Shown piece after piece: positions 3,586 through 62,937 of a stretch of 64,000 bases of DNA. Below the pieces are notes generated by a model, which was given only the letters and a program-made list of their open reading frames with translations, was not told the origin of the DNA and did no database searches. Every line of letters starts with the position of its first letter. Position 1 is the first letter of the stretch. Origin of the DNA: Undibacter mobilis (GTDB taxonomy: Bacteria; Pseudomonadota; Alphaproteobacteria; Rhizobiales; Xanthobacteraceae); the NCBI RefSeq assembly GCF_003367195.1, contig NZ_QRGO01000001.1, forward strand, positions 1,288,501-1,352,500, in the 5' to 3' direction. The translations under genes were made by a program, and so were the position numbers.

Positions 3586-3689
3586 GTCATTCCGGACGCC
3601 GCGTAAGCGGCGATCCGGAATCCAGAGCAGCAACGGACATCTATGTGTCTGGATTCCGGGTTCGCGCCTGCGGCGCGCCCCGGAATGAC
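3586..3689. repeat. 104-bp palindromic doublet (REPIN-like, family B)
   Basis: The element starts GTCATTCCGG and ends CCGGAATGAC, and internally has CCGGAATCCA ... TGGATTCCGG. It is therefore two small hairpin units in inverted orientation around a short spacer. A second copy of identical length lies at 25190-25293 with the same terminal and internal words but different hairpin loops. It sits just after the leuB stop codon. Confidence 0.8.
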
Positions 3690-25189: not shown

Positions 25190-25293
25190 GTCATTCCGGG
25201 GCGCGGCCGGAAGGCCGTGAACCCGGAATCCATACCCCCGGCGCTGCGGACTACGGATTCCGGGCCTGCCCCTTGGGGCCGTCCCGGAATGAC
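25190..25293. repeat. 104-bp palindromic doublet (REPIN-like, family B)
   Basis: Same ends (GTCATTCCGG ... CCGGAATGAC) and same inner words (CCGGAATCCA ... GGATTCCGGG) as 3586-3689, and exactly the same length, with different loop sequences. It lies between trmD and rplS, within an otherwise conserved operon. Confidence 0.82.
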
Positions 25294-25298
25294 ACCAA

Positions 25299-26012
25299 TT
25301 AGGGCTTCTTGCGCGCCAGAAAGGCCGCCCAGAGGTCCGGGCGGCGCTCCCGGGTCAGCCGCTCGGCCTCGGCACGGCGCCAGGCGGCGACCTTGGCGTG
25401 GTCGCCGGAGGTCAGGATGTCCGGGATCGGCCGGCCCTCGAACACTGCCGGCCGGGTGTACTGGGGGTACTCCAGGAGGCCGTCGGAGAAGCTTTCCTCC
25501 ACCCCGGAGGCTTCCTTGCCCATGACGCCCGGGATCAGCCGTACGCAGGCGTCCAGCAGGGTCAGGGCGGCCATCTCGCCGCCGGACAGCACGAAATCGC
25601 CGAGGCAGACCTCCTCCAGGCCGCGGGCCTCGATCAGGCGCTCATCGACCCCCTCGAAGCGGCCGCACAGGATCACCGCGCCAGGGCCGGCCGCCAGTTC
25701 GCGGACACGGGCTTGGGTCAGGGGCTTGCCGCGCGCGCTCATGAGCAGGCGCGGGCGCAAAGAACCTTCATTGTCGGCCGAAACGGCGTCCAAAGCGCGG
25801 GCCAGCACATCTGCCTTCATCACCATGCCGGGGCCGCCGCCAGCCGGTGTGTCATCGACGGTGCCGTGCTTGTCGGTGGCGTGGTCGCGGATTTGTCTGG
25901 CTTCCAGCGACCACAGGCCATTCGCCAGGCCCTTGCCGGCGAGGCTGATGCCGAGCGGCCCGGGAAACATCTCCGGATAGAGCGTAAGGACAGTGGCGCG
26001 CCACATGGTCAT
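25299..26012 (-). CDS. trmD: tRNA (guanine37-N1)-methyltransferase
   Basis: SPOUT-class enzyme using S-adenosylmethionine to make m1G37, preventing frameshifts. Family strings: [63 protein letters not shown] and LEYPQYTRP. 237 aa. The ATG at 26012 shares one base with the rimM TGA (TGATG), indicating coupling; ATG 26006 is an alternative. Confidence 0.97.
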
Positions 26013-26539
26013 CACTCAATGATCGTCGGCAGCACGATCACGACCTTGCCGCCCTTGATGTCTACTTCGGGGACCACCGCATTGCTGAACGGCAGGAGCA
26101 GCGGCTCGCCACCTTGTGTCGTCGCGATTTCGATCAGGTCGCCGGCGCCGAAATTGTAGAGCGCCGTCACCTTGCCGAGCGCGACGCCTTCGGGCGACAC
26201 GGCGGCAAGGCCGATGAGATCGGCGTGATAATAAGTGCCGTCTTCGTCGATCGCGGGCAGGCGCTCGCGCGGCACATAGAGATCGGTGTTGGTGAGCTTT
26301 TCGGCTGCGGTGCGGTCAGGCACGCCCGAGAGACGGGCGACGAAGTGATCCTTCGCCGCGCGCATCGTCTCGATGTCGAAGGTGCGCTTGCCGTCCAGCG
26401 TCTCGAACGGGCCGTAATCGGCGATCGCCGCCGGGTCCTCGGTGAAGGACCACAGCTTCACCTCGCCGCGCACGCCATGCGCCGCGCCAATGCGCGCGAC
26501 GCATACGCGTCCGGACTTGTCGCTTTTCTCGGACCTCAT
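26012..26539 (-). CDS. rimM: Ribosome maturation factor RimM
   Basis: 16S rRNA processing and 30S maturation factor. N-terminal [20 protein letters not shown], mid [20 protein letters not shown], then [11 protein letters not shown] and the PRC-barrel C-terminus [16 protein letters not shown]. 175 aa. The only possible start, ATG 26539, lies inside a palindromic repeat unit (26534-26580) and overlaps the stop of the upstream GIY-YIG gene (ATGA); no SD of its own is visible. Translation therefore probably depends on coupling to that gene. Confidence 0.96.
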
Positions 26540-26580
26540 GGTGAGGAGCGGCGCGCAGCGCCGCGTCTCGAACCATGAGC
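26534..26580 (+). repeat. Palindromic unit, family A, left of GIY-YIG gene
   Basis: CCTCATGGTGAGGAGCG - hairpin GCGCGCAGCGCCGC - GTCTCGAACCATGAG. It has the family-A architecture CCTCAT..TGAGGAGC - hairpin - GTCTCGAA..ATGAGG in plus orientation. It encodes the last residues and stop of the GIY-YIG protein and the first codon of rimM. Confidence 0.85.
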
Positions 26581-26871
26581 GGAGGAACTTCGGCGGGTCC
26601 GCGCCAGAAGCCCAAGCCTTGCGAAATCGCCGGCCATCAACGCTTCTTTCTTCGCCCGCGACCAGCCTTTGATCTGTCGTTCGGCTGCTATCGCGTTAGT
26701 AATCCGATCGAAGTATTCGCTATAGGCCAATACAACGGGTGTTCGCGTTTGGGTGTAGCCCGCGAAATGCCCGGCTTGCTGTTCTGCCACGCGGCGTTCG
26801 AGATCCGCTCGCGTCGTGCCGGTGTAGTAGCTGCCGTCGCTGCACCGAAGAATGTAGAGCCACGCACCCAT
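26536..26871 (-). CDS. GIY-YIG domain nuclease (YhbQ/UPF0213-like), repeat-flanked
   Basis: 111 aa. The GIY-YIG core is [20 protein letters not shown] followed by [12 protein letters not shown], with the usual downstream [20 protein letters not shown] and [13 protein letters not shown]. Single-domain members are structure-specific or homing-type nucleases; the role of this subgroup is unknown. The last 14 residues ([12 protein letters not shown] region) are read from the repeat unit at 26534-26580, and its SD (AGGACGAGG, four bases before the ATG) comes from the inverted unit at 26876-26923. It lies between rpsP and rimM, which are neighbours in most bacteria, so it looks inserted. Confidence 0.88.
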
Positions 26872-26875
26872 TGGG

Positions 26876-26923
26876 CCTCGTCCTTCGAGACGGCCGGCTA
26901 ACGCCGGCCTCCTCAGGACGAGG
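26876..26923 (-). repeat. Palindromic unit, family A, right of GIY-YIG gene (inverted)
   Basis: Read on the minus strand: CCTCGTCCTGAGGAGG - hairpin CCGGCGTTAGCCGG - CGTCTCGAAGGACGAGG. Same layout as 26534-26580 but opposite orientation, so the two units form inverted repeats around the nuclease gene. Confidence 0.85.
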
Positions 26924-26948: not shown

Positions 26949-27287
26949 TCAGGCCGCCGGGGCCTTGGCGGCTTCTTCGGCCTTGGCCTTGCGTTCCTTG
27001 CGCGGCACGGCCTTTTCCGGATTGTTGCGCGGCGCGCGCTTGGCGACACCGGCCTTGTCGAGGAAGCGCATTACGCGGTCGGACGGCTGCGCGCCCTTCT
27101 TCATCCACTCCTTGACCTTGTCGAGGTCGAGCTTGAGGCGCTCTTCCTTGTCCTTCGGCAGCAGCGGATTGAAATAGCCAAGACGTTCGATGAAGCGGCC
27201 GTCGCGCGGCGAACGCGAGTCGGCGAGGACGATGTGATAGAACGGGCGCTTCTTGGTGCCGGCGCGGGCCATGCGGATAACGAGCAT
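26949..27287 (-). CDS. rpsP: 30S ribosomal protein S16
   Basis: 112 aa. The body of S16 is plain: [40 protein letters not shown] and [20 protein letters not shown]. The C-terminus has a Lys/Ala-rich extension common in alphaproteobacteria. AAAGG before ATG 27287. It follows ffh by 48 bases on the same strand and is separated from rimM by the repeat-flanked nuclease gene. Confidence 0.97.
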
Positions 27288-28902: not shown

Positions 28903-29010
28903 CCTCGTCCGGAGGAGCGTCGCGCGAGCGACGCGTCTCGAAGGGCGAGGTCCCTCCGTTGTGGCTCATCCTTCGAGACGCCCGCCTTCGGCGGGCTCCT
29001 CAGGATGAGG
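28903..29010. repeat. Inverted doublet of family-A units (REPIN-like)
   Basis: Plus-oriented unit 28903-28950 (CCTCGTCCGGAGGAGC - hairpin - GTCTCGAAGGGCGAGG) and minus-oriented unit 28965-29010 (CTCATCCTTCGAGACG - hairpin - GCTCCTCAGGATGAGG), 14 bases apart. It lies directly upstream of ffh. The rest of the gap to 29226 (unpaired GC-rich sequence, then an AT-rich stretch at 29205-29230) shows nothing else I can name. Confidence 0.85.
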
Positions 29011-35622: not shown

Positions 35623-35743
35623 CCTCATGGTGAGGAGCGCCCATTGGCAGGCGCAGCCTGCGTAAACTTGGCTGCGATGGGCTCGCGAACCATGAGGCTC
35701 ATTCTTCGAGAATCGCTCCTTTGGAGCGCTCCTCGGGATGAGG
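35623..35743. repeat. Inverted doublet of family-A units (REPIN-like)
   Basis: Plus unit 35623-35697 (CCTCATGGTGAGGAGC ... CGCGAACCATGAGG, with an enlarged central hairpin region) abuts minus unit 35698-35743 (CTCATTCTTCGAGAATC - hairpin - GCGCTCCTCGGGATGAGG). Located 7 bases after ftsY. Confidence 0.82.
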
Positions 35744-50725: not shown

Positions 50726-51271
50726 ATGCCTCGTTTATTCACCGGCATCGAAATTCCATCGGGCATTGCCGAAGCGTTGAACATGTTGCGCGGCGGACTT
50801 CCGGGTGCGCGATGGATCGATCGCGAGAATTATCACATCACCTTGCGGTTCCTCGGCGATATCGACGATCGCATGGCGAACGATGCGGCATCGATCCTCG
50901 CCGATATCAAAAAACCGGCATTCGACCTGCATTTCGACGGGCTTGCGTCGTTCGGCGGCCGCAAGCCGCGATCGGTCTATGCCCAGGTCGCGGCGGCGCC
51001 GCCGCTGGTGGACTTGCAGGATGAGCATGAGCGGCTGATGCGCCGCATCGGCCTTGTGCCGGAAACGCGCAAATTCACACCGCATGTGACGCTGGCGCGC
51101 CTGCGCGGCACGTCGAGCCTCGATGTCGCGGATTATCTGTCGGCGCGCGGGTTTTTCCGCACTGCGCCGTTTCCGGTCACGCGCTTCGTGCTGTTCTCGT
51201 CACGCGCCTCAACCGGTGGCGGGCCCTATGTGGTGGAAGAGAGTTATTCGCTTGGCCCTGTCTCATCCTGA
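50726..51271 (+). CDS. thpR: RNA 2',3'-cyclic phosphodiesterase (LigT/ThpR)
   Basis: 181 aa 2H phosphoesterase. Both HxTx motifs are present: ENYHITLRFLGD and FTPHVTLARLRG. N-terminal MPRLFTGIEIPSGIAEAL is typical. 8 bases after the esterase gene, so probably co-transcribed. The last residues (VSS) and the TGA stop are contributed by a palindromic repeat unit (51262-51303). Confidence 0.92.
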   Translation: MPRLFTGIEIPSGIAEALNMLRGGLPGARWIDRENYHITLRFLGDIDDRMANDAASILADIKKPAFDLHFDGLASFGGRKPRSVYAQVAAAPPLVDLQDEHERLMRRIGLVPETRKFTPHVTLARLRGTSSLDVADYLSARGFFRTAPFPVTRFVLFSSRASTGGGPYVVEESYSLGPVSS

Positions 51272-51303
51272 GGAGCGGCGGCAGACCGCGCCTCGAAGGA
51301 TGG
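51262..51303 (+). repeat. Single family-A unit, apparently half of a doublet
   Basis: CTCATCCTGAGGAGCGG - imperfect hairpin - GCGCCTCGAAGGATGGG. The following GCGGCCAC matches the junction of the doublet at 62842-62937 (GGATGGGCGGCCACATGG), so the second unit seems to have been lost here. Confidence 0.75.
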
Positions 51304-62841: not shown

Positions 62842-62937
62842 CCTCATCCGGAGGAGCGCCGCAACGCGGCGCGTCTCGAAGGATGGGCGGCCACATGGTT
62901 CGAGACGCCACGCTTCGCGCGGCTCCTCACCATGAGG
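62842..62937. repeat. Inverted doublet of family-A units (REPIN-like)
   Basis: Plus unit 62842-62887 (CCTCATCCGGAGGAGC - hairpin - GCGTCTCGAAGGATGGG) and minus unit 62894-62937 (CATGGTTCGAGACG - hairpin - GGCTCCTCACCATGAGG), 6 bases apart, between sucB and lpd. Confidence 0.85.

Follow-up and report, generated by a model that had tools for sequence, protein, structure and literature searches.

Results

A GIY-YIG gene between rpsP and rimM

We analysed a 64,000-nucleotide stretch of the Undibacter mobilis genome (the window), in which a small gene of the GIY-YIG type separates rpsP from rimM (Table 1). The original prediction held that an inverted pair of palindromic units, here called A units, encloses this gene, and both units as well as the gene are indeed present. 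The reading frame of the GIY-YIG gene ends within its 3′ unit. This unit encodes the C-terminal tail of the nuclease and, in addition, the ATG of rimM; in uninserted relatives rimM has an apparent GTG start and a different N-terminus.

Table 1. Positions of genes and repeat units in the window; P0002 is a second bracketed GIY-YIG gene of the same genome, described below.
Feature	Position	Strand	Basis or remark
B unit	3650-3689	-	B-unit scan
Gene-less B doublet between trmD and rplS	25190-25293	.	spacer equals P0002 inner flanks at 17/21 positions; B doublet here in 3/18 loci, own included
rimM, downstream neighbour	26012-26539	-	named by reading the translation; start unlike that of uninserted relatives
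A unit, 3′ end of GIY-YIG gene	26534-26580	+	CACCATGAGG within the unit is the source of the rimM start codon
GIY-YIG nuclease gene, A subfamily	26536-26871	-	111 aa; Pfam GIY-YIG E 2.4e-14, 53.8 bits
A unit upstream of GIY-YIG gene	26876-26923	-	inverted relative to the 3′ unit
rpsP, upstream neighbour of the insertion	26949-27287	-	named by reading the translation
Gene-less A doublet upstream of ffh	28903-29010	.	A doublet here in 3/21 loci, own included
A unit, mate unrecognised	35705-35734	-	scan, at most 1 mismatch per arm
Degenerate A unit	51270-51297	+	scan of the window
Gene-less A doublet	62842-62937	.	scan for A units

Architecture and orientation of the A units

The exact A core, GAGGAGC-N(4-30)-GTCTCGAA, occurs 65 times in the 4.1-Mb genome, against 0 times for its reversed-pattern control. 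A looser scan for the two arms, applied to the window alone, gave 12 matches against 3-13 in simulated sequence and was no better than the simulation; we therefore based all counts on exact-core matches or on aligned flanks. Taking 63 of the 65 core matches (two non-hairpin matches were left out), we found that stem pairs 2-5 are Watson-Crick in 61/63, 59/63, 55/63 and 55/62 units with three to four pair types, while a register shifted by one gives only 9-18 Watson-Crick pairs. The A unit thus combines constant tails with a hairpin stem whose sequence varies freely yet remains complementary.

Exact A units lying no more than 100 bases apart form 17 pairs, 15 of them in +/- order, two in -/+ order and none in the same orientation (binomial P 7e-8), and the +/- order is also the one that brackets the GIY-YIG gene of the window. 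When the inner side of the A doublets was itself used as a search pattern, there were 0 matches. Tight inverted doublets had been claimed at three further places in the window, and those upstream of ffh and at 62842 were recovered as such; at the third (35623-35743), however, only the right-hand unit was recognised with at most one mismatch per arm.

Presence and absence at orthologous sites

Elements are present in some genomes and absent from others at three sites: rpsP-rimM, upstream of ffh and trmD-rplS. At rpsP-rimM, compared in 30 of the 40 genomes with an rpsP match, five loci (own included) carry the gene with A units, two a gene-less A doublet (G001 and G016), three a B doublet (see below), three another repeat, and 17 no insertion. 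The claim that the element is inserted between rpsP and rimM is therefore borne out by an empty site in relatives. A sixth copy of the gene at this site, from genome G028, stands outside the 30-locus tally. Two genomes whose RpsP is 98% identical to our own (G010 and G029) have neither gene nor doublet there. Neither a target-site duplication nor a target preference was readable at the compared sites, the uninserted relatives being too diverged.

We also observed that another palindromic repeat, of the CCCTCTCCCC type, fills the rpsP-rimM or ffh-upstream gap at four loci (L098, L101, L107 and L355). In genome G002 (L108) a B doublet in the rpsP-rimM gap could, judged by eye, be translated in frame and lengthen RimM at its N-terminus, which recalls the in-frame Rickettsia palindromic elements.

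A second gene with a different unit in the same genome

Another small GIY-YIG gene of the genome, P0002, lies between genes reading as recN and ligA. The inverted pair around it consists of another palindrome, the B unit (GTCATTCCGGG...CCCGGAATCCA), of which the genome contains 62 exact matches. A third GIY-YIG gene (L002), which we take to be UPF0213-like, has no matching units (flank match score 14), and the fourth family match reads as UvrC.

Five of the 15 complete B doublets of the genome (L316, L319, L321, L325 and the one at 25190 in the window) have a spacer that matches the two inner flanks of P0002 at 15-18 of 21 positions; shuffled P0002 flanks gave a best match of 14/21 in 2000 trials. 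One B doublet of a relative (L334) matches at 20/21. P0002 itself lies at the meeting point of the two spacer halves. At 15-18/21, the genome's own doublets fall short of exact gene-minus junctions. In L316 and L321, moreover, the right spacer half matches at only 5/10 and the spacer comes close to being an inverted repeat of itself, so that part of the match could be due to longer unit tails and not to a gene-minus junction. The doublet may be the element minus its gene, or the gene may have entered a doublet; both fit the spacer match. The P0002-type spacer pattern, whose left half was fixed and hence matches by construction, occurs in 15/60 genomes, all within the genus. Inverted ends are common to gene-bearing and gene-less copies, a feature of insertion sequences with MITE derivatives.

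Matched inverted units flank GIY-YIG genes in many bacteria

That nuclease homologues elsewhere might be bracketed in the same manner was part of the original prediction, and they are. A flank match score of at least 22 was reached by 138/197 GIY-YIG loci and by 2/168 control genes of the same loci, the controls being longer genes (at least 120 aa); among cross-pairs the figure was 79/1178. The remaining 59/197 GIY-YIG loci have no matching pair at this threshold. A first smaller set had given 41/60 loci above the 95th and 29/60 above the 99th percentile of the cross-pair null. Besides loci from 60 relatives, the 197-locus set takes in loci from 289 genomes of the class, 128 of which gave a match, a further 60 loci from these, and 80 loci from named genomes, which are the best 80 of 508 confirmed and are rich in Bradyrhizobium. 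Left out of the count were two duplicates (L003 and L038), the UvrC-like L004, two other GIY-YIG types (L002 and L025, scores 14 and 11), the doublet and rpsP loci L065-L114, and two loci with short flanks. In a larger set, matched inverted flanks were found at 177/246 loci and in 116/168 site clusters.

Loci from 60 relatives show the same bracketing with many unit types. The score is weaker for A-type genes (6/13) because their two units have matching tails but dissimilar stems; visual inspection shows units at L005-L010, L012, L014, L015 and L017. We regard the association of the GIY-YIG gene with matched inverted units as very firm.

It also extends outside the Alphaproteobacteria. Among the 30 named loci shown, scores of at least 22 occur there in Cupriavidus, Methylophaga, Oxalobacteraceae, Sulfuritalea and a Planctomycetaceae assembly, and further in two beta- and one gammaproteobacterial assembly, with the proviso that metagenome assemblies in the named set may be mis-binned. 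Loci from Nitrospirae (L165), Nitrospira (L181), Dehalococcoidales (L175), Caldisericota (L192) and Jacksonbacteria (L186) score 17-21, below the threshold, and assemblies labelled Zixiibacteriota (L170) and Burkholderiaceae (L183) score 11 and have no matching units. Nine of the 33 records from a plasmid collection were examined with a wider 250-base flank that had no control of its own; eight of these nine score at least 22, including Neisseria, Aeromonas, Planktothrix and Spirosoma, and the Rhizobium tumorigenes record scores 9. Two records labelled as plasmids, NZ_CP119142.1 (2.2 Mb) and NZ_AP026896.1 (4.9 Mb), look like chromosomes.

Some individual loci deserve mention. In Azospirillum lipoferum AZO_p3 (L289) sufB and sufC are separated by an element that has doublets to its left and right. 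On Planktothrix agardhii plasmid p1 (L288) the neighbours of the GIY-YIG gene are annotated as an MmeI-type restriction enzyme and the DISARM helicase DrmA, and genome G019 (L294) has two GIY-YIG genes of the family about 1 kb apart on opposite strands.

The unit type follows the nuclease lineage

The type of unit tracks the lineage of the nuclease and not the genome in which it resides. This comparison used 159 loci with matched units and left out pairs with detected outer-flank homology, though diverged orthologous sites may remain. Within one genome, none of 23 pairs with less than 50% nuclease identity share a unit, and all of the seven pairs with at least 65% do. Between genomes the shared fraction is 0.02 of 436 pairs below 35% identity (0.02-0.04 below 45%), 0.80 of 392 pairs at 65-75%, and 0.96 of 47 pairs at 75% or more. 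Unit sharing correlates with nuclease identity (Mantel r 0.41), and 0/999 permutations gave a value as high.

In four locus pairs, picked for short similarity, the similarity starts at or a few bases from the tag and ends at TGAC on the other side; in the exceptional pair, L219/L223, it continues into another unit. Upstream, Bradyrhizobium locus L139 is shared with L132, and downstream with L125, which looks like the outcome of recombination between element copies.

No pair of gene-bearing loci from the same genome is as much as 75% identical in protein (0/67, in a sample smaller than the full set of copies). In this the full element is unlike a busy insertion sequence, and the suggestion that the window element is an autonomous copy proves to be the weakest part of the original prediction.

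Doublet number and nuclease presence

Repeat number had also been expected to follow the presence of the nuclease. Statistically it does so, with gene-presence cut-offs that were set after the matches had been seen, P values that ignore phylogeny, and some genomes incomplete: the median number of A units is 29.5 in 10 genus genomes with an A-type gene versus 7.5 in 26 without (P 0.012), and that of B units is 60 in 10 genomes with a P0002-like gene versus 15.5 in 26 without (P 0.001). The P0002-type spacer doublet occurs in 6/8 genomes with a gene of at least 68% identity versus 9/28 without (P 0.039). Outside the genus, no B units were found in 24 genomes.

The expectation fails, however, for single genomes. 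Five of them (G001, G013, G016, G027 and G033) hold 31-59 A units each without an A-type gene, and P0002-type spacer doublets number 31 in G033 and 10 in G018, genomes in which no close relative of P0002 was found. These exceptions suggest that doublets outlive or outrun a close nuclease.

The enzyme

The GIY-YIG gene is under purifying selection. Among the six rpsP-rimM copies, dN/dS is 0.05-0.16 in 13/15 pairs, often with dS above 1, and is undefined in the other two pairs. Conserved Tyr, Tyr, Arg and Glu residues characterise GIY-YIG enzymes; here Tyr6, Tyr16, Arg27 and Glu64 are invariant in 57/57 aligned sequences, and together with the domain match they place the protein in the GIY-YIG nuclease superfamily. 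The window copy has Gln31 (codon at 26779-26781) in place of a near-invariant His that is present in the other 56/57, and given this loss the window copy itself may be inactive. The G004 copy has Gly for Trp70.

A predicted structural model (mean pLDDT 78) is closest to the NMR structures of UPF0213 proteins and then, weakly, to Slx1 (E 0.055), a nuclease for branched DNA. No relatives with a solved structure other than the UPF0213 proteins (PDB 1zg2 and 1ywl) emerged from the sequence comparison, and the same two rank first in fold. This likeness makes it plausible that the nuclease nicks extruded hairpins.

A search for Y1 transposases (PF01797) in 36 genus genomes gave no match in 34, own included, and a match in two. 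A RAYT was accordingly not found in our genome by this search.

Discussion

Taken together, the association of the gene with its units, their inverted arrangement, the cognate pairing, presence and absence at orthologous sites, spacers matching the flanks of gene-bearing elements, and purifying selection on the gene point to a REPIN/RAYT-like system built on an unrelated nuclease, one that moves or copies doublets in trans. We give this reading a probability of about 0.6; the movement itself we infer. A REPIN/RAYT-like system with another enzyme is what was originally predicted, and the general bracketing and the inverted doublets uphold that part of the proposal, while autonomous copying finds less favour.

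If this reading is correct, the window gene would be the nuclease-bearing form of a small element with two inverted CGTC-type REP ends, and many doublets would be gene-less forms of that kind of element. The small GIY-YIG nuclease would recognise its own unit family, that is, constant tails plus a hairpin with a free stem sequence, at times when the units extrude as hairpins or a cruciform, and would nick at or near the tag. Nicked doublets could then be excised, copied or inserted elsewhere in trans with the help of host repair and replication, and the nuclease acting on doublets would be a functional analogue of the RAYT acting on REPINs, by way of an unrelated enzyme. In this sense the nuclease may bind and cut the units and cause their spread.

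The cognate pairing would fit equally well if the nuclease were a homing endonuclease whose gene invades existing REP doublets, cutting the spacer and being copied in by repair with the flanking units as homology, while the repeats spread by other means. GIY-YIG is a classic homing nuclease fold, and P0002 sits where the spacer halves meet, as an insertion into an empty doublet would. However, a homing gene that faces many like empty doublets in one genome should then occupy several of them, which the lack of closely similar gene-bearing pairs among the 67 compared within genomes speaks against, and in two of the closest relatives, G010 and G029, rpsP-rimM is free of both gene and doublet. Where G001 and G016 have a gene-less A doublet at that site, either loss of the gene or an empty target would fit. 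On balance we consider homing unlikely.

Still less probable, in our judgement, is a passenger role, in which the enzyme would serve housekeeping or defence by processing REP hairpins or cruciforms and would travel along with them. Purifying selection, collinear inheritance at some sites (for example in Bradyrhizobium) and the likeness to UPF0213 and weakly to Slx1 would suit such an enzyme; the position of the gene between inverted matched units, and a unit family that tracks the nuclease lineage and not the genome of residence, would not.

Genomes with many doublets and no close nuclease raise the thought that another, unrecognised enzyme moves the doublets and that the GIY-YIG element is one more substrate carrying a gene. 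This seems to us very improbable, as the cargo would have to be the same nuclease family in different sampled groups, each lineage with its own unit type, and the search for an alternative mover, which covered the Y1 family, was negative in 34/36 genus genomes. Chance flanking, by which abundant terminator-like hairpins (65 A and 62 B exact matches in 4.1 Mb) would border any small gene, has a negligible claim in view of the control genes of the same loci (2/168, at least 120 aa), the gene-specific unit pairs and the label shuffling.

Extending the preferred reading of a nuclease that moves doublets in trans, we lean slightly towards the view that the CGTC REPs of many bacterial groups, among them neisserial dRS3, do have dedicated enzymes, so far missing, and that these are small GIY-YIG nucleases. 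Each nuclease lineage would recognise its own hairpin family and spread gene-less doublets in trans, making this a second, independently evolved REP-moving machinery that works without covalent tyrosine chemistry. If true, there would be a second and mechanistically different REPIN-type system, and many natural nuclease/hairpin pairs with which to study how a minimal nuclease reads DNA structure.

Comparison with known systems

Among GIY-YIG proteins, the UPF0213-like copy of our own genome has no matching units, unlike the bracketed family. Free-standing GIY-YIG homing endonucleases share the nuclease fold and a selfish-gene logic with the genes described here; they differ in that here no intron or intein is seen, palindromes of a repeat family bracket the gene, and the protein is little larger than the catalytic domain.

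In REPIN/RAYT systems (REPtrons) a Y1 transposase gene is flanked by REPs with a GTAG end. As there, we find dispersed inverted doublets of short palindromes, a nuclease-type gene bracketed by its own units, and few gene copies beside many gene-less doublets. The enzyme, however, is a Y1/HUH tyrosine transposase there and a GIY-YIG nuclease of about 95-111 aa here; the tag is GTAG there and CGTC, TGTC or CCTC here, and the A stems here are nearly free in sequence. By inspection the unit ends are of the CGTC/TGTC/CCTC type, and GTAG is absent from the units shown. With both the Y1 transposase and the GTAG tag absent, the system would work like REPIN/RAYT without being a member of it.

Br-REP2 of Bradyrhizobium (PMC5082802) has a consensus that resembles the B unit, and the words nuclease and endonuclease are absent from the main text of that paper. 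More generally, we recognised no bacterial literature joining GIY-YIG genes with REPs among the matches listed, in a search to which preprints and most subscription papers did not belong.

Among the closest published repeats are the CGTC-tagged REPs, described as having a CGTC, TGTC or CCTC tag and a CCA tail, as forming mostly head-to-head dimers, as biased towards the Alphaproteobacteria, and as including neisserial dRS3 and rickettsial RPE-4/RPE-6 (Di Nocera et al. 2013, PMC3733652). Our units resemble these in the tag (CGTC/TGTC/CCTC), in the AT beside it, in the alphaproteobacterial bias, and in the head-to-head dimers (15/17 close A pairs, and the B doublets). B units have a CCA tail, which the pattern used to find them prescribes, and many class-level units have one too; none was seen in A units, and with a longer hairpin and no clear CCA tail, the A units depart from the published description. 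The same paper reports the CGTC repeats without associated transposase genes (PMC3733652), which agrees with the Y1 search in our genus; here a GIY-YIG partner is found. The CGTC REPs range from rhizobia to Neisseria and, according to the 2013 report, lack a dedicated transposase; such a partner would account for how these very common bacterial repeats arose.
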